Positions 796 through 38,331 of a stretch of DNA of 38,331 nucleotides are shown piece after piece. The translations under genes and the position numbers were made by a program. The notes under the pieces are model-generated. The model was not told where the DNA came from. It made no database searches and worked only from the letters and a program-made list of their open reading frames with translations. This DNA comes from Scenedesmus sp. ARA3 (Eukaryota > Chlorophyta > Chlorophyceae > Sphaeropleales > Scenedesmaceae), in NCBI GenBank assembly GCA_004335835.1, contig RWJK01001545.1, positions 248,867 through 287,197 on the forward strand, read 5' to 3'. Each line of letters starts with the position of its first letter. Position 1 is the first letter of the stretch.

Positions 796-3700
796 TCACG
801 CCTGGAACTTCACGATTGCATTCAGCTCGGGCTTGTGCTCAGCAGCTGCTTCCACCTCATCTGCTGGCACGCGCCCTTCGGCAGCAGCTGCGCGCAGCAG
901 CCGCAGCAGCTTCTCCTGCTGCTGCAGCGCTGCTTTTGCGTGCTTCATCTGAAGCACCTGCAGCAGGAGGCACATGCACATGTGTCCAGTAGGCAAGCTG
1001 CAACACGCATAATCTGCTGGTGAAACACGTCACTTGGCGCCGTATAGCAAGTTGTACACAAGCATTGGAACGGAACACGTTTCGGTCAAAGGTGAAGCGT
1101 ACACAAAAGGTCATGAGCAGGACGCAGGATGGAGTATCATCGGCCCTACACCAGCAGCGGCAGCAGCATGAAGCCTGATGCACAGCACTTGATGCAAGCT
1201 GCCAGGCTTTTAGCTGGGGGCAGATGATGCTGAGCACGCCCCACACTGCACTATACCCATGCCCAGGCAACACACAGCAGCTGACGCCGAGTTTCACTAC
1301 GGAAGTGTGCGATTTGTGTTGCTCAGCCTTGCGCTGTGGAGCTTGCTCATCTGCTTGTGCATGCTCACCTGAAGGGAGCGGCACATCGCCACCCAGTTGA
1401 CTGCTTTCTGCACTGCTCACTCTTAAGGCTGAACGGGTGCTGCTCAACCCGAATCCAAAAAGTTGCACACATGCTAATGCTTGCGCATGCTCACCTGCAG
1501 GGAGCGGCCCATGGCCACCCAGTAGGGGTCCCCATAGTGAGCTACAAGCTCCTCGCCCTCCTCAATGCGCCTGCAGAACAGCCAGAACAAGCACCCACAA
1601 CAGATGAGACGATCAAGGCATGCACAACACATGAGATGAGCAGGAGCACCAAAAATGCGTAGACACATGTGCAGCGCCACCTCTCACTAGCTGTCTTGCA
1701 CATCACATGTCAACGTATCACTTGATGCAGGCATACCAGATACGGTGTACATGGCAAGGCATATTATACCCCACGGCTTGCTTGTCAAAAAATCATGCCA
1801 TGCAGCGTGCAAGGCAGTACACACATGCAACATGGGGCATGCACTCCCACCATCAACTTAATGGGAGTAATGCTGCTCCCAGTGGCTGACGGCCCGTTTA
1901 AACATGGAGGAGCATATATGTAATCAAACGTAACTGTGCAGAAGCAGCATCGATGCTAGCAGCAGTGATCACAGCCGCAGGGCTCGCATGCCCAGGGCAT
2001 CAACTGTTCACCTGTTTTGGCGGCCAAACGCCTCCAAGGTCCTATCAGCACGTGCGTGCACGCTAACCATCAGCGGAAGCTCGTGGATGGCTTGCTACCT
2101 CAGTAGCTTGTGCGCTGCGCTCTGCGCGCACACACCTGTCTGCAAACAGGCGCACAGCCGGCCGCTTCAGTGACTTGACCCACACCACGCGCGCGCTGCA
2201 GTTGCGGTGAGGCTTGCCGTCTGGCCGCTTCTCGCGCGCCCACGCGCAGTTGATGAAGCGGGACTCGTTGCCCACCTGAGAGAATGATTCAACGGGAGTG
2301 TTACTATGTTACCACTCGTGCAAATGAGGCGGGAAGATCACAGCATGCATGTTTGAGTCATTGCCGATTGCGCAGAGTGTGGTTTTGACAAGCAGCTAGC
2401 AGGCCGCAGCAGCACCACGACATCCACGCTAGTTTGAAAGCTGTAGGTGGAGCACCTGCTGTTGTATCACCACATATCAGGTTGACTGCAGGATGGCCAG
2501 TTGGTACAGCCGCGTACTACAGCATTGTGCCACACTCCACACACAACAGCAGTGCTTGCGGTGCTAGCGCTGTTGTCGTCTTCAGCAAAGCGACACTTAG
2601 GTTTTCTGCTCACCTCACGCGCGTCAATGACCAGGTCCTTGATGCGGGTCTCTGAGAGAGTCGGGCACGCTTGCAGCAGGTCCTTCGCATGTATGGTGAA
2701 GCAGTTTGCCTGCAGCAGCAGCACATGGCAGCCAGTAAGCACACAGACAGCACCGTACTCATGCATGTCAGCAGAGACAAAAAGCTGCCCCTGCCATGAG
2801 CCTAGCGAAACTGCACATCTGCAATTCATTGAGTGAGAATGCACAACTCTTAGCCCTCCGCATGAAGTCATGCTCAGGGTGTGTGCAAGGTGGTTGTTGG
2901 TGGGAATCCCACAATGGCGGCGGTGCCACAGTACCTGTGCCACTTTGCTGTTGTCGTCGTGGCGATGGCTCGTGCTACAACTGCCACCACTGCTGCTGCT
3001 CTCACCTGGTCCAGCACATCGTCTGCGCTGCTTTTGCTGCTCAAGTCGGCTTCTGTGTGCACCACTCCCACGTAGTCAGTGATGGCCTCCCCGCGCTCAA
3101 TGACTGTGGCTGCGACAGCGCCGCGCGCAGCCACATTGGGCGGCGTGCACCACCTGCATACCCAATCAAGCAGCACAATGTGTCCCTTGAGTTCATGCCA
3201 AATTAAAGTATATGCAGCCCATGATACGAAGCAACTGCTGCACGCTGGGCTGAGACTTTAAGGCAGCACCAGAGCAGCTGCTGTTCCAACCAAAAGCAAC
3301 AGACATGGCAATCGCCGCACGGTCTCGTGATTTTCTGGTACTGTCAACCCTGCTGAACGTTGGGACAGTGCATGGAAGTCTGCTATTCAGCGTGTACAGC
3401 AGTGAAGCTACTGGGCAGGCTACCAGCAACAGTCTGCTGCCAGCCTGTAGTTATGGTGGCCTACGCCAAGGCGTGAATGCACCTTGCCAGGTGGTGCAGA
3501 GACGCCACATCAACCACCCGCAGCTTGGGTGCACCCTCCAGCGGCCCTGAAGCACAGCACGGCACGGCATACAGCAGCACAGCACAGCGCATTGCAGAGC
3601 AGCACAGCAGATGGCAAGTCACACACATTTGCCCATGGATGCAATCACTATGTCTGACACAAGCAACTGTTGTGCTGACAGCTGAGAGGTCCTCACGCAA

Positions 3701-6517: not shown

Positions 6518-7103
6518 CTTGGTCTTGGTCTGCTGGGCTCGGAAGCCAATGGCACAGCACTAGAGGGGGCCGGGGTAGTCCAGGGTAGGGTGTTTAAAAG
6601 TGATCTTACAAACAGGTGAACATACTATGTATACGACCAATAGAACACACTCCCTCATTATCGTGCACACAGGCGTACCAAGGGGTGCAATGAAACATCC
6701 ACACTAAAAAGGGCAGAACCCGCCATGGCCAGAACCACAGGTAACATCAAGTAGCACCAGCAGATGCCAACATGGTGGCTTGCCAGCCTGCAGATGTACC
6801 AGTCACAGCTGTGCAAAGCCACCGCAGAGGCTGATCTGGCGCAAACTTGAGTGATGCCACCTCAACATTGATCAAGAATGGCATGCGACAGCGGCACCTG
6901 CCATGTGTTCACTTCATGATTGCCCCACGCGCGGCATCGTGGTTTTAAGCATACCACCTAAAAGGTATGCCACAGCGCCACCTGCCACGTCACACTCACT
7001 GAGCAGCCCCACACGCTGCCTCACGGACATCACGGTCCTAAGCTTGCCACCTCGCAACATCTGCCATTGCAGTCACACACCAGCCACCTCTGCCACGTCA
7101 CAC
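6518..7103. other. Region between the SET and DTW genes (3' UTR, promoter)
   Basis: No gene is seen between the start of the SET gene and the stop of the DTW gene, both on the minus strand. On the minus strand a TGTAA, the usual chlorophyte polyadenylation signal, lies at 6610-6606, about 500 bases beyond the DTW stop. The SET promoter must then fit into the short stretch just above 6517. Positions 6868-7131 hold imperfect repeats described separately. Confidence 0.45.
6606..6610 (-). terminator. Possible TGTAA polyadenylation signal of the DTW gene
   Basis: TGTAA on the minus strand is the common poly(A) signal in green algae. Its distance from the DTW stop suits a 3' UTR of about 500 bases. 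A five-base motif can occur by chance, so this is only a suggestion. Confidence 0.3.
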
Positions 7104-7131
7104 TCACTGAGCAGCCCCACAAGCTGCCTCG
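6868..7131. repeat. Imperfect tandem repeats including a copy of the DTW gene 3' end
   Basis: The last codons and stop of the DTW gene (about 7088-7130) recur almost exactly at 6981-7022, sharing the run TGCCACGTCACACTCACTGA. A second pair, about 6880-6908 and 6961-6990, shares the pattern GGYATGC-ACAGCG-CACCTGCCA. Together they look like roughly 100-base units duplicated across the coding end and 3' UTR. Confidence 0.7.
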
Positions 7132-22799: not shown

Positions 22800-23201
22800 T
22801 TAGTGCTGCCTGCCGGCCTCAGCTTCTGCTGCTGCTGCTGCAGCCGCAGCAGCAGCCGCTGCATGCTGTTGATGCATGGGTGCAGATGCCCGCCGCCATT
22901 TTTGTCGCTCGCTGTCGCGACTGTCAGACATCTCGACACCAGCCGCCGATGACTGCGCATGCTGCAGCTGCTGAGGTTGCTGTTGGTGAAGGGGTGCGGA
23001 GGCCCTACGTGCTTTTGGCTGGCCTGCAGAGCGCAGCAGCTCCTGAAGCGGCGGCAGTGGCAAGTGCCCAAAGCCCTGCAACACGCTGCCAGCACCAGCA
23101 GCGCCTGCAGGGCTGTCAGCCGGATCAGCCCTTGCATTGGCATGTCCTGAAGCTGCCGTTGCTGGTGCTGCTGCAGGTTGATGGCTGCTGCTTGGCACTG
23201 C

Positions 23202-23237
<36 letters not shown>

Positions 23238-25035
23238 CTGCTGCTGCACACCCTGTGCAGGAAGAGGTGGTGTCTGCTGCGCTGGCTGCCGGCTTGGCAG
23301 CGGCAGCTGCAAGCTGTGCCGCTGCTGCTGCTGCCGCGCTGCTGCAGAGTCTCCCTCTGGCACCTGCTGCAGCTGCACCCCTCCTGCTGTAGGGCTTGGC
23401 TGCGCCAGCAGCCCTGGAGAGAACCCTGCCGTGGCTGCTGCTGCTGCTGCTGCTGGCGCAAGCAGGGCGCTGCTGCTGCTGCTGCTACTGCTGCGGCCAG
23501 GCCTTGCCAACCCCGCCACCGGCAGCGTCACCTGCGCCTTTGCTGCGTCAGCGATCTGCGCCAGCAGCTGCAGCTGGTCCCAGTTTAAGCTCGATAGCTC
23601 ATCCATTGCTGCAGCATCAGGAGGTCCGCTACTGCCAGCACCACCCACCCCTGCAGAAGCAGCCCGTGCAAGCATCTCCGGAAGCTGCGCCAACTGCTGC
23701 TGCCCGCTGGCCACGCTGCCCCTGCCACCAATTGATGCCGCGCTGCAGATGCTGCCTAAGGGGTCGCTTGGAGCACGCCCTGCTGACTCAGGGTGCCAGG
23801 TCATCGCTGCTGCTGCTGCTGCCGTGCTGCCCAGCTGCGACGCACTGACAGCTTTTCGCACAGCCGGGTGGTAGCTGCTACGGCCCCTAAAGCCTGCAGA
23901 TGGCGAGGCCGGGGGCGATCGAGCCTGCGTGTGTGCTCCAACCTCACTTATGCCGACAGTTAGGCCAGCAAAGCCTCCATGTACACTTGCAGCGCGAACT
24001 CCTGGCCGGTGCAGCTGCGTGGTGCGGCCGTCAAGGGAGAAGCGCGCAGCTGCTGCTGCCGCTGCTGCTGACTCAGCGCCAGGGGCAAAAGTGACCTGGC
24101 GATCCCGTACCGGCGCCAGATGCTGCTGCTGCTGCTGCTGGCCGGGGCTGTCCAAGGTTAAAGCAGTAGCCCTGGGGTCAAATGCATGCCGGCCGCTGAT
24201 GTCAATGCCAGGCGGCCACGCGCCTGCTGCTGCTGCCTGCGCCTGCGCTGCTGTTGTGAAGGCCACTTTCGGCATGCCTGCTGCCCCAGCAGACCACGGC
24301 ACTGCTGCTGCTGCTGCTGCTGCCGATGAGAATGGTGCTCGAATATCCAGCGATGGCCTACTGGTAGTATCCACACCCCGCGGCCATGCACCAGCAGCAG
24401 CTGCTGCTGCCTGCCGCGCATCTAGAGAGTACCTGCCAGCTGCTGCTGCCGCATGCCGTCGCGCCGCCGCCGCTGCCTCGGCAGCCGCTGCCGCAGCGAC
24501 TGCAGCGGGCGAGCCTACTGCTGATGCAGCATGCATTGGCAGCGGCTGTGAGTGGCTGCGGTGGTCTGGCACCTCACCGGCAACTGCTGCAAAGCCAGAT
24601 GGGTGGCGCAGAGGGCTTAATCGAGATGCATGCGCCGCATGGGGCTGCAGCGCAACAGATGTGCTAGGCCCCGCAGCACGCCCCGTACCTGCTGCTCTAT
24701 GGCCTGCTGCTGCTGCTGCTGCTGCTGAGCTGGCTGCGTCGAAGCTCGGCCGGCCAGCAGCAGCAGCATTTGACAGCGCACGCTTTGCCAGTGACGCTTT
24801 CAGGGACATGACTGCTGCAAGGGCTGCCATAGAGCCCGAGTGTGCATTGGCGCGCGTGGTGCTGCTGTTGATGCTGTCCGAGTTTGGCGACAGTGCAGCA
24901 GACGAGCTTGAGGAGTGGCACAGCGCATCGTTGCTCTGAGATAAGTCGGTGTCCTCGTCAGCAGCTGTGGAAGAGGATGCGTCTGCGGACGCGCGCTGCT
25001 GCTGCTGCTGCTGCTGCTGTCGCTGCTGCTGTTGC

Positions 25036-25094
<59 letters not shown>

Positions 25095-25255
25095 CCCTGC
25101 CGAATGTGGTGACGAGAGGGCCTGCCCTACAGGGGCGTCAGCTTGCTGCTGATGTACCAGCTGCTGCTGCTGCTGCTGCCCTGTTGGCCGCACAATCAGC
25201 TGCTGCTGTTGCCCAGCAGCAGGCAGCAGCTGTACCTGTGCGTCCTGGAGCTCCC

Positions 25256-25296
<41 letters not shown>

Positions 25297-28200
25297 GTGC
25301 TGGTTGTATGCAAGCCTGCAGCAGCAGTGCTGCTAGCCGCTGTAGGCACGACATCACTCAGCTGCAGCAGCGCACTGCCAGCAACTAGCGCCTGCTCCTG
25401 CTGTAACGCCTGTGCAACGCCAGTGCTGCCAGTACTGCCCGTTGGGGCGCTGTGCACTGCGAGCACTTCACTAGGCAGGAGGGTCTGCTGCGAGGCAGCA
25501 GCAGCGGATGGCGGCAGTTCGTCTGCGGCAGCTGCTGCAGGGTCCGGACCGCCAGCCTGCTGCTGCTGCTGCGGCGGCCCACTCAACGCTCCAGCTGCTG
25601 CTGCTGTTGCTGCTGTGCTCTGGCCAGGTGTGGTAGTCAGCATCGTTTCGCTGTCTGTGGATGCTTTGTACTGGTAGGCTGCTGCTGCGAGGTTTAGCCC
25701 TCCGTAAACCCTCACACCGGGCTCATCATCGGTTGAGCTATAAGGGTCTTTGAAGTCGACACTTTTGCCTGCAGTGCCCGACTTGCTGATGCTGGCAGCA
25801 GCAATGCAACTCTCAGAGTCAGGCTCTACATCCTCAACAGCAGCAGCAGCAGCAGCAGCTGCCGCTGCTGCAGTGGCTGCGGAGGATGGCCGCACGGCGG
25901 CAGCAGCGGCAGCAGCAGCGTCTGCAGCAGCCACAGCTTCCAAGGCGCCTTCTGTTCGCAGCCAATGCTCGTCGCAGCTGACAGTGATGCTCATCTGCTG
26001 CAGCAGATGCTCCGGGATAGCCACGCTGTCCCTGCTAGGCTCACATTCCTCCTGCTGCTGCTGCTGCTGCTGCTGCTCCAGCAGTGTCGAAAGCAGCGGG
26101 TGCTGCTGCAGGCGTCCTGACACCTCGAGCCCATTCGCAGATAAGCCTTTTGCAGCTGGCTCGCCGGCACCAGCTGCCTGTGCTTTGGCCGCGGCTGCTG
26201 CCGCAGCGGCGGCTGCAGGGCTTGCTGAAACAGGGATGGCGCCAGCACCAGCAGCAGCGAGTGTTAGCTGCTGCTGGCTGCGCGACCTCACAACACCACC
26301 TTGCTGCTGGTGCTGTTCAGCAATCACCTCATGCTGCTGCTGCTGCTGCTGCCGCTCTGCATGAGCAGGACCACCATCTACTACTGCAGCAGCAGTAGCT
26401 GCTGCTGCTGCTGCCGGCAGCGCCTCTGGCAGCTGAGGGCAGCCTCCACCCGCCGCCGCTGCTGCTGCTGCTGGTGCTGGTGCTGCTGTGAGGCTCGCAC
26501 TCGGGTTAGTGATGGCGTCTGCTGACGTGGCTGCTGAGCTGCTGGCTGCTGCTGCTGCGATGCGCTCCCGCATGCGCTGCAGCTCCGCCAGAATCTCCTG
26601 GAAGGAGGGCCTGATGGATGCATCGCTCTCCCAGCACCTGCGGGACACATTGCACATATGTCAGAATATCTGCTTATAATGCCGCAAGATACTCTGCCAG
26701 GATTTCCTGGAAGGAGGGCCGGATGGATGCGTCACTCTCCCAACACCTGCAGCACCATTATCAAATAGTTTAGGCGATGCAGGTATTCTGTGTCAGATGT
26801 TTCAGCCAGAATCTCCTGGAAAGAACGCTCTCCCAGCACCTGCAGGACAGATTGCACATACTTCAGACGATCCACACATTATCCAGATACAATACTGCAA
26901 GCGGCTCTGCCAGGATCTCCTGGAAGGATGGCCTGATGGATGCATCGCTCTCCCAGCACCTGCCGGACATATTGCATACAGTTCAGAAACAGGTCAGAGA
27001 CAGTTTAGGTATCATGCTTCAAGACACTCTGCCAGGGCCTCCTGGAAGGAGGGTCGGATTGATGCGCCACTCTCCCAGCACTTGCGGGACGCATTACACA
27101 TGTCAGACTATTCGCATACAATGCCGTAAGATACTCTGCCGAGATCCTTGCGCCAGCCCCATTGCGCTGCAGGTGCTGGGATCGCGTGATGCATGCGACT
27201 GTCCATACTAGGCCCACAACCTCCGACAGCTGCGCGTCATACCGCACGCAACAGGTGCCAGCCGCCGCACCTGCAGCAGCTGTCAGGCGCGTCCGCGGAG
27301 CTGCATACTTTGCTAGATACTGCACACAGGCACCATTTACAAGCACCAACCACACCTGCAGGCCAGCAGCTGGTAGTCGAAAGGGCTGCCCTCAGGAAAC
27401 TGCGGCCGCTGCTGCCGGTGCGCCACCTCATGCCCGAGCAGCGCGCGCGGGATGCCCTTGAAAGCGTGAGCAGCCGTGAACAGCTCCCACAGCAGCACAC
27501 CAAAGGCGTACACGTCGCTGCCGCGGCTGAGCTTGCCTAACAGCATGACCTCCGGGGCCATGTGCGTCATGGTGCCCTGCAGCACAAGCATGGCAGTACA
27601 TAAGGGAGGCTGTGACCGTTGAAGTTTCACCCATCAAAAGGGAGCTGCTGAGCTTGCCCAGCAGCATCACCTCGAGGGCCACACGGGACTTAGAGGGCAG
27701 CACTAGAAGCTGGCCTGAACACACTGCGCGGAACACAATGGCTTGCCACACGGATTGCCGCAAAAGGCTGTACGCACCTGGAACACGTTGGACACGTGCG
27801 TGGCGGCGGGGTCGATGCACAGTATGTGCCACACAGTGCACATCTCACACACAATTGCAGCGCTGGGTGTTACGCACCTGGAACACATTGGACACGTGCG
27901 TGGCCGAGGGGTCGATGCACAACAGGTCAGGCACACAGTGCACATCTCACACCCACACAGTGCACATCTCACACGCACACAGTGCACAACTCACAGCAAA
28001 TGCAGCAGACTCACCTGGAACACGTTGGACACGTGCGTGGCGGCGGGGTCGATGCACAATAGGTGTCACACACAGTGCACGTCTCACACACAAGTGCAGC
28101 GCTGGGTGTCACGCACCTGGAACACGTTGGACACGTGCGTGGCGGCGGGGTCGATGCGCATGCTGAGCCCAAAGTCGGCCACCTTGGCCACATACTTGCG

Positions 28201-31200
28201 GCCGTCAGCGCCGCCGCTGCTCTTCAGCAAGATGTTGCGCGCCTGCAGCATGTAATACAGCACATTGCAAGTGTGGCTGAGAGTTCATGATACAGGCGAG
28301 CCTAGTGATTGGTTTCTGTAACCTCGTGCTTGCGGCCGTCAGCGCCGCCGCTGCTCTTCAGCAGGGTGTTGCACCCCTGCAGAGGCAGCAGCAACAGCAC
28401 ACGCATCTTGCATCACGGCTGAGCCAGTCTCTTTCTGTTGGACAACGCATGCAGGTAACGCAAGTCCCCAGAAGTCCACCCAAGTAACAACCGAATACCC
28501 TGGCAGATCGTGCGTACCTTGAGGTCCGAGTGGATGATGTTTTCGCTGTGCAGGTGCACCATAGCACGCGCCACGTCCAGCGCAGTGTCCAGGATCAGCA
28601 GCATGTCGCGCCCGCCGTCTGCAGCAGCAGCAGCAATTACACATACAGATGCATCACAGCCTCGCATAGGTCAGGAGAATCGATTAAAGGCCACGGCCAA
28701 GCTGCAGGACATGACACACTTGTATTTACACATATAGCACACTCTAGTTGATCAATTGAACCCCTCGTTGCATTTGACAAAAAGCGCTGGCAGCTGTTGC
28801 TGTTCACAGTGCAACATGGCCTTGTCAGCGCAGTGAAATGTAGGTTGTTGTGTCCACTCGTCTGCGCAGGAGGTTAGAAGGCTCACCTGGCGTCTTGAAG
28901 GGCCCCGACTTGTTCAGCAGCTGCCGCAGGCTGCCCTGGTCGCAGTACTCCAGCACCAGCTGCACCTCCCAGCTGCAGGGCAGTGTAGTATGACATCAGC
29001 CCGAGCACAGCAGGCAGCAGCACACATCAGCATGTGAGCGAGTTGAGCGACGCTGTCGACAGAATTGCGCACTCCACAGACAACGCATCATATGAGGGTG
29101 TCGCCTCTTGAGGATGTGAATTGGTACAATGCAGCAGCCAAACGGCGCCAGCAGCGCTGCCAGAATGCGGCAGCTGTCACTTCACTGGCAGCACCGCAAC
29201 CCTGCAGTACAAGACACGCGGCTGCTCAGATAATGCACACTGCACAAGCACCGATGTCATGCTGCGCACACAACATCACACGCGCTGCCAGAATGCGGCA
29301 GCTGTCACTTCACTGGCAGCACCACAACCCTGCCGTACAACACACGAGCTGCATGCAACAAAGCACGCAGGCGTCCGCACAGCATATATTTCTGACACCT
29401 CCTCACGCACCTGTGCACCGCATCCCCTTGGCCCTGCTCCAGGAACGCAGCGTTGAGGATGCTGTCGCCCACGCTGCTGCCCGCCACGCTNNNAAAAAAA
29501 CATAACACAGTATGCAGCAACTGCTCTAGCCGCACCTGTGCACGGCATCGCCTTGGCCCTCCTCCAAAAATGCCGCGTTGAGCGTGCTGTCGCCCACGCT
29601 GCTGCCCTCCAGCCGGTGCTGCGCCCCTGCCTGCTGGGTGAGCTGCGCCTCGTGGCCCACCAGCACCGGGCGCAGGTAGTAGGTGTACATCTGCGTGCGC
29701 AGCAGTTGATAGTAAAAACACAGCAGTCCACGTTAGGCTCTGCAAAGACCTACACAGGGCAGCTTGCGCGGCACCCAACGGATGGGAGAGTGGCGCAGGT
29801 GGTAGGTGCACATCTGCGGCTGGGGACAGCCGTGGCACTTCAGAACATGGCAAAGGTTGACAACACACTGAGCCATGCAATGCCTGCAGGTGGTATATGT
29901 GCATCTGCAAGTAAGCAGGAGACACACAGGTCAGCACGCTCAGCACTGCAATGGGCGACCGCATGAGCCTTAGGTGTGGCCTTGTGGCCGTTAGCACCAG
30001 CCGCAGGTAGTAGGTGTCAATCTGCGGTCGGGGGCAGCACTTCAAAAGGTTACAGCAGGTGAGACCGAAACACCAGGTTAGTGCCCCGCCCTGTTGCATG
30101 CCATCAACGCGTCTGCTGTCCTTGATCTGTTGGTGTGGCTCTGTCTGGCGCTGATTGTTCAATATGATCATTCTCCTTTGTACTTCCTGTAGCACTAAAA
30201 GTAACACACAACTAAACACTACGCCCACCTGCACGATGTTGGGGTGGGAGAGGCCTGCAGAAATGGCTGTCTCCATGATGGCCATCTTCCCTGTATCAAA
30301 TCCCTGTGGTGACAGTAATAACAGCAATAACAAAAAACGAACACCATGCCCACCTGCACGATGTTGGGGTGGCTGAGGCTTGCGGAAATGGCCGTCTCCA
30401 TGATGGCCATCTTCTCGCGCTTCTCTCTGCCGCTCATGGCGGCAGGGAACATCATCGTCTTCACAGCAACCAGCGTGCCCTTCCAGTAGCCTGCAACACA
30501 CCACAGACACAAAATCTTTATCGATATCAATGTTGTCATTGTGGAGACAGGTTGCCGCTCATGGCGGCCGGGAACATCATTGTCTTAACGGCAACCGGCA
30601 TGCCCTTCCAGTAGCCTGCCTAGAAAGCATACAACCGGCAGGCATGTCACAGAGGTTGTCAGTCTTCTCGCGCTTCTCCTTGCCGCTCATGGCAGCCGGG
30701 AACATCATCGTCTTCACAGCCACCAGCGTGCCCTTCCAGTAGCCTGTTGTGATACATGAAAGACGCGTGGCACACGCAGAGCAGTTGATGAGCAGCACAC
30801 AAATATACAGCACACAGCATGCTCGATGTCAGCAGGCCAGTCCATGGTCTGCAAAGGTTTGCCATGCAGGCGTGCAGCATGAGTTGCACCGCTGCAGTAG
30901 CCGTCGGATTGATCATTGACAAGACGCTACACTTGACCAGATCCTCAGCACAATCTGCCTGCAAATGGCTCTCTGAGAGGGACCAATGCCGCACAATAAA
31001 CCCTCGTGCTGCCTCACACTCACCTTGGAACACCTTGCCAAAAGTGCCTTCCCCAAGAACCGCCTCCAGCACCAACGCATCGCTACGTGCCAGGTCACCC
31101 GCCTTGGTGCCTAGCCGCTTGCGCGCATCCTCAAACACCTGCTGCTTATGGTGGCCCCGCAGCGCGCCCAACCCAGCATCCCCTGCTGCTGCTGCTGCTG

Positions 31201-33289
31201 CTGCTGCGCCTTGCTGCTGCTGCGTGCCGTCTTCTGTGGTGTGGCCTAACCCCTCATTGTGCCCGAGGCCAGCAGCAGCACCTGCAATCGCCCCATGCAG
31301 CCGCTGCAGCGAGCTGTTGTTGTTGATGTTGTTGCCCTTGCTGCTGACCTCGCAGTTGCCAGACGCCTGCCGGGCATAGATCTCTGCTGCCGTCGCATCC
31401 GCCAGCTGCTGGAGCTGCTGCGGGTGCATCGCAGCATCCATATCCCATGTGCCGCGCCCCGTCATGCTCGCACCAGCAGCAAATGCAGCAGCCAGCTGCT
31501 GCCGCCCGACATCAGACACACAGCGCACAGGCAATGCTGCAGCCAAGCTGCTCGCGTTGCGGCCGCCAGCAGACATGAAAGATCGCATCAGAGAGTCCCG
31601 CGCACCAGCAGCTAATGGACCGCCTCCTTCGCCAGACTCTGCATAGCTTGCTGCTGTTGCAACCAGCGCCATATGCGGATCAGAGCCGCCGCCGCCGCAG
31701 TCAAATTCCAAGCCTGCTGCTGCGCCACCTGCTGCTGCGCCACGAGCATGCCACACATCACCATCCCGACCGCGCCGCCGCCGCTGCCGCTGCCAGCACC
31801 AGCCGCCAGCGCCAGCAGCAGCAGCAGCCTTGCCGGCTGCTGCACTGCCGCTGCGATGCGGCCGCTTGCGCGATGCCAGCAGCAGCAAGCCTGCCACAAG
31901 GCCCAGCAGCAGCACTCCAAGCAATGTGCCCAGAATTACTGCTGCCATGCTGCCGGGCGACATCCCGCGCGGCGCTGCTGCTGTTGCTGCTGCTGGCAGT
32001 GAAGGATCCCACTGCAGGTGCGTGTTGATGTATCCATAGAAGCTGCTGCTGCTGGCCGGCTGCTGCTGCTGCTGCTGCGAGCTCGAGTCAAACCCAGGAA
32101 ACAGCTGCGCTGCCCGTGACCTGCAAATGCATGACAGCATCAGCAGGGCACGCCCATCATACCCAGGACCTTTTTTCTGCACGAGATCTCAGCACCTCCA
32201 CAGCATGCAGAGGGGCACAACATGTTCCAACAGCAGCAGCACACGCCAAAGCATTACATTGCCAATGCGACATCAGTACGCCAGCCCGGTCGATGCTTCG
32301 ATACAGCTGCAGCTGCCAGCTGCTCACCGTGGCAGCAGCAGTCTGTGCACGTCCACCACGCGGCTGCTTTCTGCTGTCATGCTGTTTGTCTCCCCAGGTT
32401 GCGTCCACACGGCATTGCCAGCATCCATCAGCAGGGACTGTGTCCTGCCTTTCAGCAGCACATCCTGCAAGTGCAAGGACAATGCGCAGAGCGGATGCAG
32501 TCTCACTCAGCAGCAGTGCTAGTGTCAGGACACGACATGACATAACAGGCCAGGAAGTTGTGCTAAACGGCACATTGCAGGCCAACAGTACTAACTAGAA
32601 ATGGTCCTGCCTGGCATGCAGACCGCGCCCACACCCGCAGACAAAAGATCCACCACCTTCACCGCAAAGGTTGCATCCAAGCATCGATTGCATCACACGC
32701 CGCACCACGCTGCGCGAGCTACACACGTGCACGTGAAGCTGCGCCACCTGCACACCCATCAACACGCAACACCATTGCACCCACCTGGAATTCCAAGTAG
32801 CCATCGCCAACCAGGTTGGCTACTGGCAGCAGCGGCCAGCTGCCAGGCACGCCTGGCCTGTCCAGCACGCCGTACAGTGTGAGGTCGCCAGAGAAGCGCA
32901 GCATGGAGTGCACACTGATCAAGGCAGCGCCCTGCAGCAGCAGCAGCAGCACCAACACCAGAGTGAAGTGGTGAAAACAGGAGAGAAGGCAGCAACAGCA
33001 GCAGCACAAGCATGGGCTGGCACTTGCATTGTGTGGGCGTGTCGAAAGTCTATAGAGCGCATGGTGCTGCCCTAGGCTACAGCCGTGTTGGCCTCCTAAC
33101 ACTGCCTCCACTGCTGCTTCTGCTGCTGCTGCTGCAGCTACTGGAGCACAGTTTGGTTGCATGTGTGTCATTGCTACAGCTGCACAGTGAGCATGAGCAA
33201 GCCCTGCCCTGCATGTCCTGCTGCTGCTGCTGCTGCTGCTGCAATATGCTGCCACCGCTACAGAATAGCCTAAGCATATTTCGTCGCGA

Positions 33290-33338
<49 letters not shown>

Positions 33339-35570
33339 GCTGCGCCGCACACACCTGCAGCTGTGAGAAGTCAAGTGTGTATGTGGCGCCCTGTGCTGCA
33401 TCCGGGTGGCAGCCGCGCAGCTCCAGCGGCCGCTGCAGCTCAAACACATCATTGCCAGACGCCTGGCAGCAGCAGCAGCAGCAGCCAATAAGCCAGCCTT
33501 GAGGCAAGAACGACAGCGCATATGCATGAGCAGTGGTAACTAGAAAGGGGGGTTCTGCCACTGGGCAGCTGTGCAGCAACACGTCCATGATCTGCGGCGA
33601 AAAGGCTGAGCAGCTGCACGCGCGTGCATGCCGCGGCGCACTCGTATCTACATGCACATGCCACCCCACCAACACACATACGCACATTAGCGGCGGTCCT
33701 CTGCACACTTGGGGTGATCCAATGCTCCGGTGCAACTGCTGTAGCTGCAACAGCAGCAAAGCTCACCTGCCAGCGCTCAGCGTACAGCTTGATGTCGCCT
33801 GCAACTTGTATCATGCTGACGGCGTTGTTGACAAGCAGCCTGCTGAGCTGTGTGTCGTCAGTGGCCACTGCGATACTGCTGTTGCTGCTGCTGACGCTGC
33901 TGGGAAAGCACGGCTGCGCTGGCACCTGCAGCAGCGTCACACTGTCCAGCACAAGCCGTGAACCTGCAGCAGCATGCACACCAGCAGCACATTGACGTCA
34001 GTATAAACGCATCATGTAAACAAGCTGCTACAAAGGCAACCTACATTCCGGTCACTGCGCTGCCAATCAGGCTGTGGAGTCAAGTACTATCACAACGTGC
34101 AGCTCAGCCCCTTAGCATGCACGACCCTGCTGGTGACACATCAACAATCTGCTATTGCTGATGTTGCTGGTGTGAGTCGGGCTCATGATAATAATCACCT
34201 GTAGCTGCTGCAGCAGCACCCTCGTGCAGCTCCTTCCCTGCCAAGTCAACGCTCCAAGAGTTGACCAGCAGGGCAGGCCCGCTGCTGCCTGGTACTGCTG
34301 CCGCTGCTGCCTCTGCTGCTGACAGCTGCTGTATGCTAGGTGCGCTGCTGCTTGCTGGCTGCTGCTGCGCCACGCCCTGCATCGCCTGCTGCACGCTGCT
34401 GCTGTTTGACACTGCAACCACCACATCTTGAAGCAGCAGCTCCGCGCCTGCGGACACGTCTATTGACCCCAGCAGCAGCAGCGCAGAGGTATCAATGCCG
34501 CGGCTGCTGCGCACTTCATCCAGCGGTGCTGCTTGCAACAGCCGCAGCCCTCCTCCAAGCACCATGCGTGCCCCTTGCTGCAGCGTCACCGCCTGTGCCA
34601 GCCTGTTGAAGTTGAGGCTGGCAGGACTGCTGCTGCAGCCGCTGACATTCACACTGGAGATCGGCACTCCGCGCAGCTGCGTGAAGAATGCTGGATCCAG
34701 TGCAATGTCTGTGAACACAAGCACGCTGCTGCTGCTGCTGCTGCTGTTTCCTGCAAGGCTTCCTGCAAAACTTCCTGCAGCATCACCCTGCAGTGCTGCC
34801 AGCAAGCTGGGGCTGTTCCAGGCAAGTGCGCTACTGCCATCGTAGCAGCTGCTGGGGTCCAGTGCTATGATACTGTCCTGCAAGCTGGTGCTGCTGTTGC
34901 CGCCGTAAAAGCTGCGCTGCATGGAAGGCAGCTCCACCACCCGCTGCTGTGCATCTGCAGCACTGCCTACAAGGCTGCGCTCCGCTGCCGATACTCCTGC
35001 CCCGCTTCCACTGCTGGCTACTGCTGTGGCCTGCTGCTGCTGCTGCTGTGCCCTGGTGCTGCTTCCTGCAAGGCTGATCTCTTGCCAGGCCAGCTGCCAA
35101 AAGGGCATGGTTGCTGTGAACTTTGCTGCTGCCCCAACCGCCAGAAACGTGCAGCTGGTCACTGACAAGGAGGCTCCGCTGCTGCTTACGTTGACAGCTG
35201 AGAGTGGCATCATGCTGGTAGCTGTTGTGTAAGGCAACGGTTCAGCAGGGTAGAAGCCTGCGAGCGTTAGGCCTTGCAAAATCAGCTTGCCGCCTGCTGC
35301 CACGTTGATGAGCGGCTCACTTGCGCTGCCAAAGCCCAGAATGGTGTGTCCATTGCTGGATGTGATTGTGACAGGCCGAGCAACTGCCAAAGGCTCGAAC
35401 TGCTGAGGGTCAAGCAGCAGCTGCCTGCTCAGCACGACAGTAGACACGCCTGGCGCAAGCAGTGCCTGCCTCAGCTGTGCTGACGTGCTCACAAAAGTAG
35501 CATCTGGCGGTGGCGCGCATCGTGCGCTGCTGCAGAGCACAAGAAACCACAGCAGGCACCAGAAGGCCAT
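22800..35570 (-). CDS. Receptor-like protein kinase with beta-helix-like ectodomain and very long low-complexity tail
   Basis: Thirteen exons: 35570-34199, 33963-33767, 33462-33355, 32931-32785, 32464-32328, 32120-31024, 30490-30354, 29690-29536, 28972-28887, 28618-28518, 28242-28117, 27576-27356 and 26637-22800. They total 7722 nt, giving 2573 aa. Residues 1-18 are a signal peptide. An ectodomain of about 690 residues of Val/Ser/Leu-rich strands resembles parallel beta-helix proteins. A transmembrane helix lies at about 712-735, followed by Arg/Lys. The kinase domain spans about 1005-1315: LGEGTFGKVF, VAVK (K1030), HSDLK (D1177), DFG (D1202), APE (1228-1230) and CWESDASIRPSF. The essential residues are present, so it should be active; the class is TKL-like, as in other green-algal receptor kinases. 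The last 1250 residues are Ala-, Gln- and Ser-rich, with several poly-Gln runs. Exon 3 could extend in frame to about 33592. Ligand and target are unknown. Confidence 0.85.
24995..25095. repeat. CTG/TTG-type tract encoding poly-Gln in the kinase tail
   Basis: About 100 bases of CTG units interrupted by TTG and TCG read as a near-pure Gln run on the minus strand. It is the longest of several in the last exon; another lies at about 25258-25295. Interruptions suggest it is older and more stable than the pure run in the DTW gene. Confidence 0.9.
26690..27150 (-). repeat. Four to five tandem copies of the kinase exon 13 start, with acceptors
   Basis: The true exon 13 start (26594-26643: acceptor, then CWESDASIRPSFQEILAE) is repeated at about 26695-26752, 26809-26856, 26904-26980 and 27025-27100, with a remnant at 27123-27150. 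Spacing is about 100-120 bases. Most copies keep the CAG|GTG(T)TGGGAGAG acceptor junction; the 27025-27100 copy has AAG instead. Each diverges after about 20 codons and soon meets a stop. The copy at 26809-26856 has an internal deletion. Confidence 0.9.
27641..27680 (-). repeat. Partial copy of kinase exon 12 (EVMLLGKLS segment)
   Basis: About 35 bases match the real exon 12 at 27525-27562 (GAGGTxATGCTGxTxGGCAAGCTCAGC) with scattered changes. The copy lies upstream in the same intron and lacks the exon's own acceptor. Confidence 0.65.
27774..28062 (-). repeat. Three tandem copies of the kinase exon 11 3' end, each with a donor
   Basis: The exon 11 end (real copy 28117-28160, encoding IDPAATHVSNVFQ) recurs at about 27777-27821, 27877-27920 and 28013-28058. 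Each is followed by GTGCGT or GTGAGT. The intervening intron sequence (ACAGTGCAC-TCTCACACAC, GCAGCGCTGGGTG) is repeated too, so the unit of about 100-140 bases spans exon end plus intron start. Confidence 0.9.
28327..28381 (-). repeat. Copy of the kinase exon 11 5' end with acceptor
   Basis: About 53 bases match the real exon 11 start at 28194-28246, including the CTGCAG acceptor, 134 bases upstream in the intron. The encoded N-I-L codons are changed to N-T-L, with few other differences. Confidence 0.85.
29159..29345. repeat. Direct repeat of about 59 bases inside kinase intron 8
   Basis: The segments 29159-29218 and 29287-29345 (CCAGAATGCGGCAGCTGTCA onward) are nearly identical and lie 128 bases apart. 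This is intronic sequence, so the duplication process is not limited to exon edges. Confidence 0.85.
29411..29490 (-). repeat. Copy of the kinase exon 8 3' end plus donor, ending at an N gap
   Basis: This matches the real exon 8 end at 29533-29606 (GSSVGDSxLNAAFLExGQGDAVHR) and is followed by a GTGCGT donor. It is cut short by three N bases at 29491-29493, so the full length of the copy is unknown. The exon at 29690-29536 was chosen as real because it is complete, with acceptor and donor. Confidence 0.85.
29491..29493. other. Assembly gap (NNN)
   Basis: Three N bases mark an unresolved join within the repeated exon 8 region, next to a run of A. The true gap size is not known, and repeat collapse or expansion here is possible. 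Confidence 0.95.
29795..30037 (-). repeat. Three degenerate copies of the kinase exon 8 start
   Basis: The real start (29690 downward, QMYTYYLRPV) is echoed at about 29797-29818 (QMCTYHLRHS), 29888-29912 (QMHIYHLQAL) and 29985-30033 (QIDTYYLRLV). Each sits behind a CAG acceptor. Repeat spacing is about 95-110 bases, and adjoining intron sequence is shared between the outer two copies. Confidence 0.8.
30228..30302 (-). repeat. Copy of the kinase exon 7 3' half with its own acceptor and donor
   Basis: It encodes KMAIMETAISAGLSHPNIVQ, against SASLSHPNIVQ in the real exon (30490-30354), and ends at a GTGGGC donor. Upstream a CACAG acceptor precedes GFDTG, so this copy looks like a small complete exon carrying the C-helix Glu segment. 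It lies 125 bases downstream of the real one. Confidence 0.85.
30553..30748 (-). repeat. Two upstream copies of the kinase exon 7 5' half with acceptors
   Basis: Copies at about 30661-30748 and 30553-30618 encode GYWKGTLVAVKTMMFPAAMSG, or with M-P for T-L in the second. They include the ATP-binding Lys, and both follow an AG acceptor. Neither continues to the exon's HPNIVQ end, so only the copy at 30490-30354 is complete. Confidence 0.88.
33289..33340. repeat. CTG microsatellite in kinase intron 3
   Basis: About 17 CTG units lie just inside the intron after exon 3. A shorter CTG run (about 33220-33241) lies 50 bases away. On the minus-strand transcript this is a CAG run in intron RNA. Confidence 0.9.
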
Positions 35571-36070
35571 GGCACTCTTGGCTTACATGCAGCCCGGAGG
35601 GGCCGTTGCTTGCACAATAGCCATAGCCTCAGTCCGTGTGTTACACCATCAACCAATCAGGTCTGGTAATAGCAATCTCTTCTGATCAAGCCCGTGTGTG
35701 TGAACTTCGGTCGTCACGCATACAAGCCTCATTGCCCACTTATACCCCATGAAGTATCCAAAGACACACATGGGCGGTCTTGATGCAACAGTATGTTCAT
35801 CAGGGGCGCACAATGTTATTTGGCTTGCTTCAGGTCGGTGACGAACAGGCTCGTTCAATGTTCAGCGTGAAGAGTTGTGCTTTTGTTAAATCGTTTGTTT
35901 TAAATGCTCAGGCGACCGTTCGGCCGGGTGACAGAGTGTGTGTATTTGCGTGAGTGGGTGCGTGTCTTGCCGATAGGTCTCCTCTCCTTGCGGTGTTGAC
36001 GTATCTGACTCGGATAAAGTGTTATAACGTCTCAGTGGAGTGATTACATATACTGTGAGGCCAGCTGAAA
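35571..36070. promoter_or_regulatory. Divergent promoter region between the receptor kinase and ABC1K genes
   Basis: The 500 bases separate two start codons that face away from each other and contain no gene. The sequence is notably less CTG-rich and more A/T-rich than its surroundings (35640-36060), as expected of a promoter. No firm TATA box is identified. Confidence 0.55.
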
Positions 36071-38274
36071 ATGGTAGCGCTTCACCTCAAGTGAGTGGGC
36101 CAATCCCAGCATGCAGGCGATCACCAGTGGTTCGGATGACAAATAGTAAGAACTAACGTACACGGGTGGCTACATGACTTGCAGGCCGGGCCTTCATGGC
36201 TTGGCGGGGTCAAAGCGTGTGGTGAAAACATCAGCAGCATCAACAGACAGTGAGTTGCAGCAATTGTGTGCTGACAGCAAGCCAAAGCTATCTCAAGCAC
36301 CGCGGATACTAAGAGCTTCGAATCAGCGCGTTGCATGTGCTTCAAGCTGGCAGCAGTTGTACATCAGCGCTTGGGATGCCGTCACTGTCTCAGCCACAGC
36401 GTGTGAGGCCTGTCAGGGCCTGCAAGACCTTTCAACTGGGGGCGTTTTCTGGTTTCCTGGACAGCAAGTTACTGGAACAATTAATTCAGATTTTCACACA
36501 TCGCTGCCGTCATGGTGCAAGCTTACTGACCAGCAATGCAGTGCATGGCACACAGACTGCGGTATGGTGCGGCCTCTCTGCTGCTACGTCCTGCTTGAGC
36601 AGCTGCACATCTAACATCGTGCTGTGTTGCTGCTGCTCCTGCTGGTGCTGCTGGTGTTGCTGCAGGCCCACCCAGGGGACCCAGGCCAGTAGTAATGCGG
36701 CCGCTGGGGGCACCTTCAACAGTAAACAGTCCACTCAGCAGCACAGACGGCAGCAGCAGCAGCAGGAATGGCACAACAAGCACGCGTGACAGCCGATTTG
36801 ATGCGGAAAGCAGAAGCAGCGGCAACATCAGCACTTCATACAGCAGCAGCAATGGCAGCAGCAGCAGCACTGGTTTGGTGGTGGCTCGGCGCAACGTACC
36901 AACACTGACCGTTGTGCAGACAGCAGCAGCAGGCGCCGCAAGCAGCCTATCTTCTGCTTCTTCTAGGGACCGGCTAGCAACCATGATGGCTGAGAGCAGC
37001 CAGGTGAGCAGCTGACTTCCCTCGTCAGCGATTGCACAGGAACAAACACTGGCTGACACGTCAGAGTTCAAAGCTGCAGCAGCCCCATCTCAGCTATCGC
37101 ATTTATATGTCACGTGCACGTGTGCAACTTGAGCAGCGTCAGCATGTGGGCAGTTGGGTACATATCGCTTTCTGCATCCCACCTTTCCCTCCATGCCTGC
37201 CCACTTACTCACACACCTGCCGCACTGCGTGCTGTGGCTGCTGCCTGCCGTGCTTTGCTGCTCTGTTGCTTGTCATTGTTGTCACCTGCCTGCAGCAAGA
37301 CTTCCCCACGGACGTAGATTTCAAGTGGGCGCAGGACAGTTACAACGTGACGCAGCGCAACACCGACACATGGGTGTTCTTTGCAGTGTTCAGGACGCGC
37401 CTGTGGCTGCTGGAGCAGAAGTGGAGCTACCCAGGCGGCTTCACAGGTTCGAGGATGTTATTTGTTGAATATATCATGTTATATGTGTTACTTAGCCGTG
37501 GTGCTACTGTTTTGGTGCATAATCACCTGGCTTGTTGTGCAAGCGGCTGGTGACGCTGGTTGCAACTATGACTGCAAGCTGCTGCATGGTGTCATGGATT
37601 GTATAGCCTTGCACACGCTTGCCAGCGGTTTGTCACACTGACATACTGAGTGCCGTTTGCTTGCAGATGAGAAGCGCTCAGCGCGTGCACGCAGCCTTGC
37701 CAGCTACCTGCTGGACTCCATCCTCAACCTGGGGCCCACCTTCATCAAGGTTGGGCAGCTCTGCAGCACGCGCTCTGACCTGTTCCCAGCAGAGGTGAGC
37801 ACAGCAATGCTTTGTGACCCGAGGTGGCACTGAGATGTGGCGCCTTGCCTGAGTTGAGCAGCTCTGCAGCACGCGCTTAGGTCTGTTTCCAGCAGAGGTA
37901 GCCACAGTCTTCATGTAGTATGGTTGCCATGTACATAGGACGATTCTAAGCATGGTAAAAGCATAACTGCGCACCTTCAAGCAATGCTGGTCCATGTTTC
38001 ATTACTTGGGTTGGCATGAGGCCCACATTCATCAAGGTCAGGCAGCTGTGCAGCACGCGCTCAGCCCTGTTCCCAGCGCTGTTCCCAGCAGAGGTGAGGG
38101 GTGTAGCAAGCAGCAGCCGCATGTGACTGGGGCGTCGACTGCTATTTGGAGCAGCAGCGAGCGGCGACCCCAGGTTGCATTTTAACCTACTCTGGGTCAA
38201 GATAGGCCTGGCCCCTGCCTTGATCACTTTGGCCAGCATCGGCTTTGTAACGATGCATGGCTGACGCCGCTGTG

Positions 38275-38331
<57 letters not shown>
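36071..38331 (+). CDS. ABC1K-family (aarF/ADCK-like) atypical kinase, plastid-type, 5' part only
   Basis: Five exons, 36071-36090, 36185-36249, 36666-37003, 37296-37446 and 37667-37794, give 234 codons in phase. The coding part stops at 37794 because the next exon lies beyond the window or is not seen. Residues 1-140 are rich in Ser, Arg and Thr with few acidic residues, like a chloroplast transit peptide. Residues 142-191 (DFPTDVDFKWAQDSYN, then WVFFAVFRTRLWLLEQKWSY) match the conserved lead-in of plastid ABC1K proteins. Residues 214-234 (GPTFIKVGQLCSTRSDLFP) contain the diagnostic KxGQ motif. These atypical kinases regulate prenylquinone and lipid metabolism in plastoglobules or mitochondria. 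The family call is firm; the member is not identified. The first exon (7 codons) is the least certain part. Confidence 0.8.
37845..38095 (+). repeat. Two downstream copies of the ABC1K exon 5 3' end, each with a donor
   Basis: The exon end GCAGCTCTGCAGCACGCGCT...CCAGCAGAG|GT is repeated at about 37857-37896 and, with more of the exon, at 38015-38094. The second copy also holds a small internal repeat (CCCAGCGCTGTT). Both are followed by GT (GTAGCC and GTGAGG). Confidence 0.88.
38276..38331. repeat. Pure CTG microsatellite at the window edge
   Basis: At least 18 uninterrupted CTG units run to the end of the window, so the full length is not seen. It lies in what should be the intron after ABC1K exon 5. 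Confidence 0.95.

Follow-up and report, generated by a model that had tools for sequence, protein, structure and literature searches.

How do the introns of Scenedesmus sp. ARA3 come to hold many short copies of the ends of their neighbouring exons, each with its splice signal and lying about 125 bases away from the original? The question is raised by a stretch of 38,331 nucleotides (contig RWJK01001545.1, positions 248,867-287,197; hereafter the window) that forms part of an 87.3-Mb genome in 1567 contigs. A preliminary description of the window had pointed to such copies in a kinase, an ABC1K-like, a SET and a DTW gene, and had connected them with the origin of new introns and alternative exons. 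Here we confirm that the copying of exon edges into introns is real, dense, nearly fixed in size and patchy, and we read the copies as tandem duplications of nearly constant length across splice junctions that have been left in the introns. The copying looks like a habit of duplication throughout the genome, by which introns have been lengthened and no new exons made, and part of it could be an assembly effect; a role of the copies in the birth of introns or exons is not supported. Among the papers listed by our searches of one open-access library, none was seen to report exon-edge copies of this kind.

Copied exon edges in the window

Self-BLAST of the window returned direct repeats in all four genes (Table 1), those of the kinase gene spanning 26579-30746. 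The kinase exon chain (A to H, minus strand) was set from splice signals and is confirmed by a Monoraphidium protein of 62% identity whose alignment starts in the kinase-domain part of exon A and runs into exon H. From exon A to exon H there are 14 splice edges, of which eight are copied, namely both edges of B, C and F and the acceptor edges of G and H; the count of five copied exons given earlier stands, while their numbering as exons 7, 8, 11, 12 and 13 has no match in the present chain. The introns around these exons contain 14 copies that can be aligned and one that is broken, every copy in gene orientation, with acceptor copies upstream and donor copies downstream of their source. Eleven of the 14 start at the first base of the exon or end at its last base, two start from base 5 and one from base 17. 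A 22-base minisatellite at 27932-27995 in the intron between F and G belongs to the fast turnover of the spacers between copies, and CTG/CAG runs are abundant both in long low-complexity coding exons (23204-26077) and at the end of the window (38276-38331).

Two kinase paralogues at other loci (L002 and L007) carry edge copies of their own; the exon G acceptor edge, for example, occurs in three versions in L002. No internal repeat was detected at E <= 0.01 among the 43 kinase homologues listed, a search of viral contigs for the kinase returned none, and a reading frame through copies and introns, sought in an independent assembly, was found in 0 of 7992 candidates at E <= 0.001. The fragment at the end of the window, without a Pfam match, we take to be ABC1K-like from its motif and the preliminary description. 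Between two of its edge copies the intron contains a dispersed element, about 65-80 bases long (37930-37994, and 2288-2368 of stretch L028) that had no Rfam match in the window. From 40 scored of 228 first-look candidates, 41 matches to the element are listed, including the window itself and one match of 31 bases, the others being 90-98% identical and in both orientations.

Table 1 Exon edges in the window and their intronic copies (nt, position in the source exon; fractions, identical bases)
Feature	Position	Strand	Evidence or remark
SET-gene exon 3' edge; copy at 1352-1397 (91%)	1478..1523	-	SET domain match; self-BLAST 1352-1523
DTW-like gene 3' end; copy at 6977-7022 (94%)	7083..7130	-	DTW match under curated cut-off; self-BLAST 6977-7130
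Kinase exon H 5' part (real), acceptor edge copied as array	26451..26637	-	Exon chain
Exon H acceptor edge copy, 48/55	26692..26746	-	7 synonymous, 0 missense codons
Exon H acceptor edge copy, broken	26802..26839	-	With deletion
Exon H acceptor edge copy, 55/59	26901..26959	-	
Exon H acceptor edge copy, 45/55	27027..27081	-	Splice AG lost
Kinase exon G (real)	27356..27576	-	Exon chain; protein alignment
Copy from near exon G acceptor edge, nt 17-54, 32/38	27644..27681	-	
Exon F donor edge copy	27778..27821	-	44 bases identical to copy at 28015, introns different
Exon F donor edge copy, 40/44	27878..27921	-	Intron side 53/58 like real one
Exon F donor edge copy, 43/44	28015..28058	-	
Kinase exon F (real), both edges copied	28117..28242	-	Exon chain; protein alignment
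Exon F acceptor edge copy, 42/44 from nt 5	28329..28372	-	
Intronic direct repeat without exon sequence; partner 29282-29346	29154..29218	.	95%
Exon C donor edge copy, 66/76	29411..29486	-	3-N assembly gap 29491-29493 adjoins
Kinase exon C (real), both edges copied	29536..29690	-	Exon chain; protein alignment
Exon C acceptor edge copy, short, decayed, 20/22	29792..29813	-	
Exon C acceptor edge copy, decayed, 33/39	29979..30017	-	One indel
Exon B donor edge copy, nt 77-137, 56/61	30229..30289	-	
Kinase exon B (real), both edges copied	30354..30490	-	Exon chain; Monoraphidium protein aligns over junctions
Exon B acceptor edge copy, nt 1-63, 57/63	30553..30615	-	
Exon B acceptor edge copy, nt 1-81, 76/81	30663..30743	-	
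ABC1K-like exon edge; copies at 37853-37907 and 38017-38077	37730..37794	+	Self-BLAST 37730-38077

Abundance and distribution of the copies

The window was joined by 20 stretches taken at even steps of contig number (L009-L028), giving 220,537 bp, and then by six further stretches from contigs sampled before (L029-L034), giving a full sample of 27 stretches and 276,537 bp. Two genes, the kinase and a biotin synthase in stretch L010, have exon chains fixed by homology to public proteins; all other exons come from a gene finder self-trained on the sample, which recovered the splice edges of the kinase. Read without its intron copies, the biotin synthase is 100% identical over 283 residues to A0A383W910 of Tetradesmus obliquus, and the alga is therefore this species or a near-identical relative. 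Its exons b, d and e have given rise to eight copies, one of which encodes VLEMVRRIRGLGME unchanged.

The 220,537-bp sample holds 174 local direct pairs (offset 40-700), compared with no direct pair in two third-order Markov replicates, and no inverted pair at a centre distance of 40-700; under a looser rule that includes hairpins, 19 inverted matches were counted against 12 in the two replicates together. Copies thus lie next to their source and in direct orientation, as tandem duplication leaves them. The full sample contains 236 such pairs. A genome-wide process, as had been surmised from the window, is borne out by copied edges in 17 of the 27 stretches and by comparison with shuffled positions: 120 of 700 predicted exon edges (a total inflated by copies that the gene finder itself called as exons) fall within copies, as against 57.4 (SD 7.8, maximum 80 in 300 rounds) when the repeats are rotated within each stretch.

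In the 220,537-bp sample, copies cover 16.9% of exon sequence at most 50 bases from a splice edge, 5.4% at 51-100 bases and 0.7% deeper in exons; noncoding DNA is covered to 8.8% away from exons and to 10.5% within 60 bases of one. Exon edges are favoured by the copying without being its exclusive target, and 55 pairs include no exon at all. Copied edges are missing from ten of the 27 stretches, and five lack pairs altogether, so the copying is patchy. Some of the copy-free stretches contain genes that, judged from their peptides, seem to be conserved ones, such as those of a putative ETF-ubiquinone oxidoreductase, RlmN and a WD40 protein.

Size, spacing and age

Pairs at offsets of 20-700 in the 27 stretches, L002 and L007 were classed as junction-spanning (152), noncoding (55) and exonic-interior or other (48). 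Sizes were counted on the 112 junction-spanning pairs whose second copy lies on the intron side, the other 40 being dropped. First-order offsets, found in 46 of the 112, range from 95 to 169 bases with a mean of 125 (SD 17; 41 of 46 at or below 145), and second-order offsets cluster at about 200-260, with an intermediate copy present in 26 of 35. The match in a junction pair has a median of 48 exon and 8.5 intron bases. Across the first-order junction pairs the length of the match is anticorrelated with that of the spacer (rho -0.71), and shows little relation to the offset (rho 0.22, p 0.14); the anticorrelation was taken on this natural first peak, its equivalent in a wider set being partly forced by the offset limits. 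The noncoding pairs form a broader offset peak (34 of 55 at 60-159), so that copying is not limited to exon edges.

Duplication units of 100-140 bases had been proposed from the window, and the spacing agrees with them, while the intron half of the supposed unit often does not: in 44 of 65 spaced pairs it is no more alike than chance allows (p <= 0.05). The picture of a recurrent and dense process with copies of differing ages is upheld. As for its being ongoing, junction copies at 95-98% identity speak in favour, whereas among pairs of offset 40-170 there is no full-unit duplication near 100%, a class that short-read assembly might collapse.

Origin of the copies

The differences between copies and their exons are of an unexpected kind. 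Among codons with a single difference in 95 unique copies, 256 of 413 changes are synonymous where 166 are expected (p 3e-19), a share of 62% as against the roughly 40% expected of neutral copies. The excess recurs in every identity bin, in the 24 of the 95 copies that carry an indel (67 synonymous, 40 missense, 3 stop) and in the homology-fixed genes (15:4 in biotin synthase, 32 of 47 in the kinase); by hand arithmetic with missense changes as the decay clock, it corresponds very roughly to 6-13% of excess synonymous divergence per identity bin. CpG hypermutability was rejected as its source within the single-difference codon count. A three-way branch count (38 synonymous, 29 missense, 1 stop) had suggested constraint on the copies and was dropped, since copying from the exon on separate occasions produces that pattern as well.

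The second misfit lies in the intron halves. Among 65 pairs the spacer is like the expected flank in 21, where 3.25 are expected, and even at identities of at least 90% only 10 of 24 spacers do so above chance while 14 do not. In exon F, identical exon halves are joined to unrelated introns, and the most similar intron goes with the least similar exon half; the exon and intron halves of copies can differ in history, as exons F and H illustrate. Taken together, the synonymous excess and the unrelated-looking intron halves do not fit simple neutral decay. They suggest a diverged homologous chromosome as the template or, less likely, mixing during assembly.

We therefore favour, with a probability of about one half, recurring tandem duplications of about 125 bases that are often templated on the diverged homologous chromosome and survive at exon-intron borders. 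Short duplications of this nearly fixed size would arise repeatedly in this genome, each one probably a step of repair or replication in which roughly 125 bases of DNA are newly synthesized, and the template would often be the allele on the homologue and not the sister. A copy made in this way would from birth carry synonymous differences and a dissimilar intron half, and a birth from a diverged allele would explain the synonymous excess, the unlike spacers and the differing histories of the two halves alike. Duplications that span a border would survive because splicing still takes the real edge and the extra one stays in the intron, and their later decay would amount to intron growth. One relative is described as likely diploid with alternate-haplotype contigs (PMC7955037), and the DOE0152z assembly is about twice that of UTEX 393 (PMC5552973). 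Against this reading stand the 44 spacers at chance level, the mismatched halves of the exon F copies, the pairs away from exons and the copy-free stretches; searches for a second-haplotype contig of two copy-rich regions, in which the best candidates were scored, also found none, which leaves the allelic template a hypothesis.

Diverged alleles might also have entered through the assembly, if reads of a second haplotype or strain, or short-read gap filling, had been strung together so that a copy is simply the exon edge of the other allele. Mostly synonymous differences and differing introns are what alleles would show, both gaps in the sample (three N each; window 29491-29493 and L028 2567-2569) lie 5 bases from a copy edge, and the published T. 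obliquus UTEX 393 assembly was built from 101-base reads with merging and GapFiller (PMC5255914). We nevertheless consider this unlikely. A copy requires a join from intron to mid-exon that presumably exists in neither intact allele; such abrupt joins, arrays of four or five copies, which exceed two haplotypes, and decayed older copies with frameshifts and some stops argue for real DNA. Moreover, 231 of the 236 pairs are free of gaps, both internally and for 50 bases around, and no allelic, second-haplotype contig was found for two copy-rich regions among the best candidates scored.

Plain tandem duplication on the same chromosome, followed by neutral decay of the copy, would account for the fixed offset, the arrays, the frameshift indels within copies and the homologous introns that some arrays retain (as in the 53/58 match of exon F in Table 1). 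It is disfavoured, and we regard it as improbable, since it predicts the neutral synonymous share and not the observed one, and since so few spacers of the most similar pairs rise above chance.

Splice sites and the fate of the copies

A further possibility is that the copies are kept as functional elements, either alternative exon ends or splicing decoys, and the synonymous-rich differences and the scarcity of stops (4 of 413 codons, 6.7 expected) might be cited in its support. We judge it very unlikely. The exon-side end of a copy is less often accompanied by a partner splice site than are nearby control positions, which led us to reject the copies as cassette exons, and frameshifts are present. 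Among junction pairs, 38 of 42 at 90% identity or more still have the splice dinucleotide, as do 38 of 51 at 80-90% and 12 of 19 below 80%, a loss that is about what general decay gives. In the public T. obliquus biotin synthase protein each edge occurs once and the copies are absent. The proposed route to new introns and alternative exons is consequently supported on neither count: neither partner sites nor this protein gives any sign of a new spliced intron, and the copies, which contain a median of 48 exon bases and are not enriched in second sites, do not resemble duplicated or mutually exclusive exons.

An introner, a mobile intron-like element inserted together with duplication of a long target, scarcely merits consideration: a spacer does separate the two copies, and in other parts of the sample one spacer in L028 has five weak matches and one in L020 is matched over 43 bases at 95%, but 36 of 44 spacers have no such match, most of the 103 far matches come from a single CTG-rich spacer, and the spacers with matches, mainly low-complexity, form no clear family across loci.

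Relation to known systems and significance

Short tandem duplications arise in plants via adjacent nicks or patch repair, and rad27/FEN1 duplications are known from yeast. Like the algal copies these are direct and in tandem, reach about a hundred bases or more and are made by repair or lagging-strand synthesis; to our knowledge they have no tie to exon edges, to a narrow size of 125 bases or to allele-diverged copies. Introners are repeated elements that make new introns, and share with the present case a genome-wide gain of intron-linked sequence; unlike them, each copy here derives from its own local exon.

In the potato RdRp gene, as here, DNA across an intron-exon border has been duplicated in tandem; there the outcome was a new spliced intron, and a further 83-bp tandem duplication lies within an intron (PMC4974935). 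The alga differs from it in that no new intron or exon is evident, the copies are intron filler, and duplications occur densely and at a nearly constant size. Novel intron positions in Drosophila have been attributed to tandem duplication or sliding, with 25 cases in 31 genes (PMC2891723). These too involve duplicated exonic sequence adjoining introns; in contrast to the alga, coding sequence with proto-splice sites turns into intron there, and the cases do not amount to a genome-wide habit of forming arrays.

Intron growth and turnover have mostly been inferred from rare cases. With 236 local pairs in 276.5 kb, a tight size and a known source, the size, template and age of such events become measurable. 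The edge copies would put gene annotators on guard against false exons and, if they prove to be alleles, call for caution over published Scenedesmaceae assemblies. The introns of T. obliquus average 462 bases, compared with 230-302 in the four other algae tabulated with it (PMC5966456), and edge copying may help to account for this length. We would venture, tentatively and as a possibility on the doubtful side, that T. obliquus has a standing process of roughly 125-base synthesis on the diverged homologue, by which allelic versions of exon edges are copied into introns; the introns would then accumulate a record of alternative alleles, and the process would drive the large introns of the lineage.
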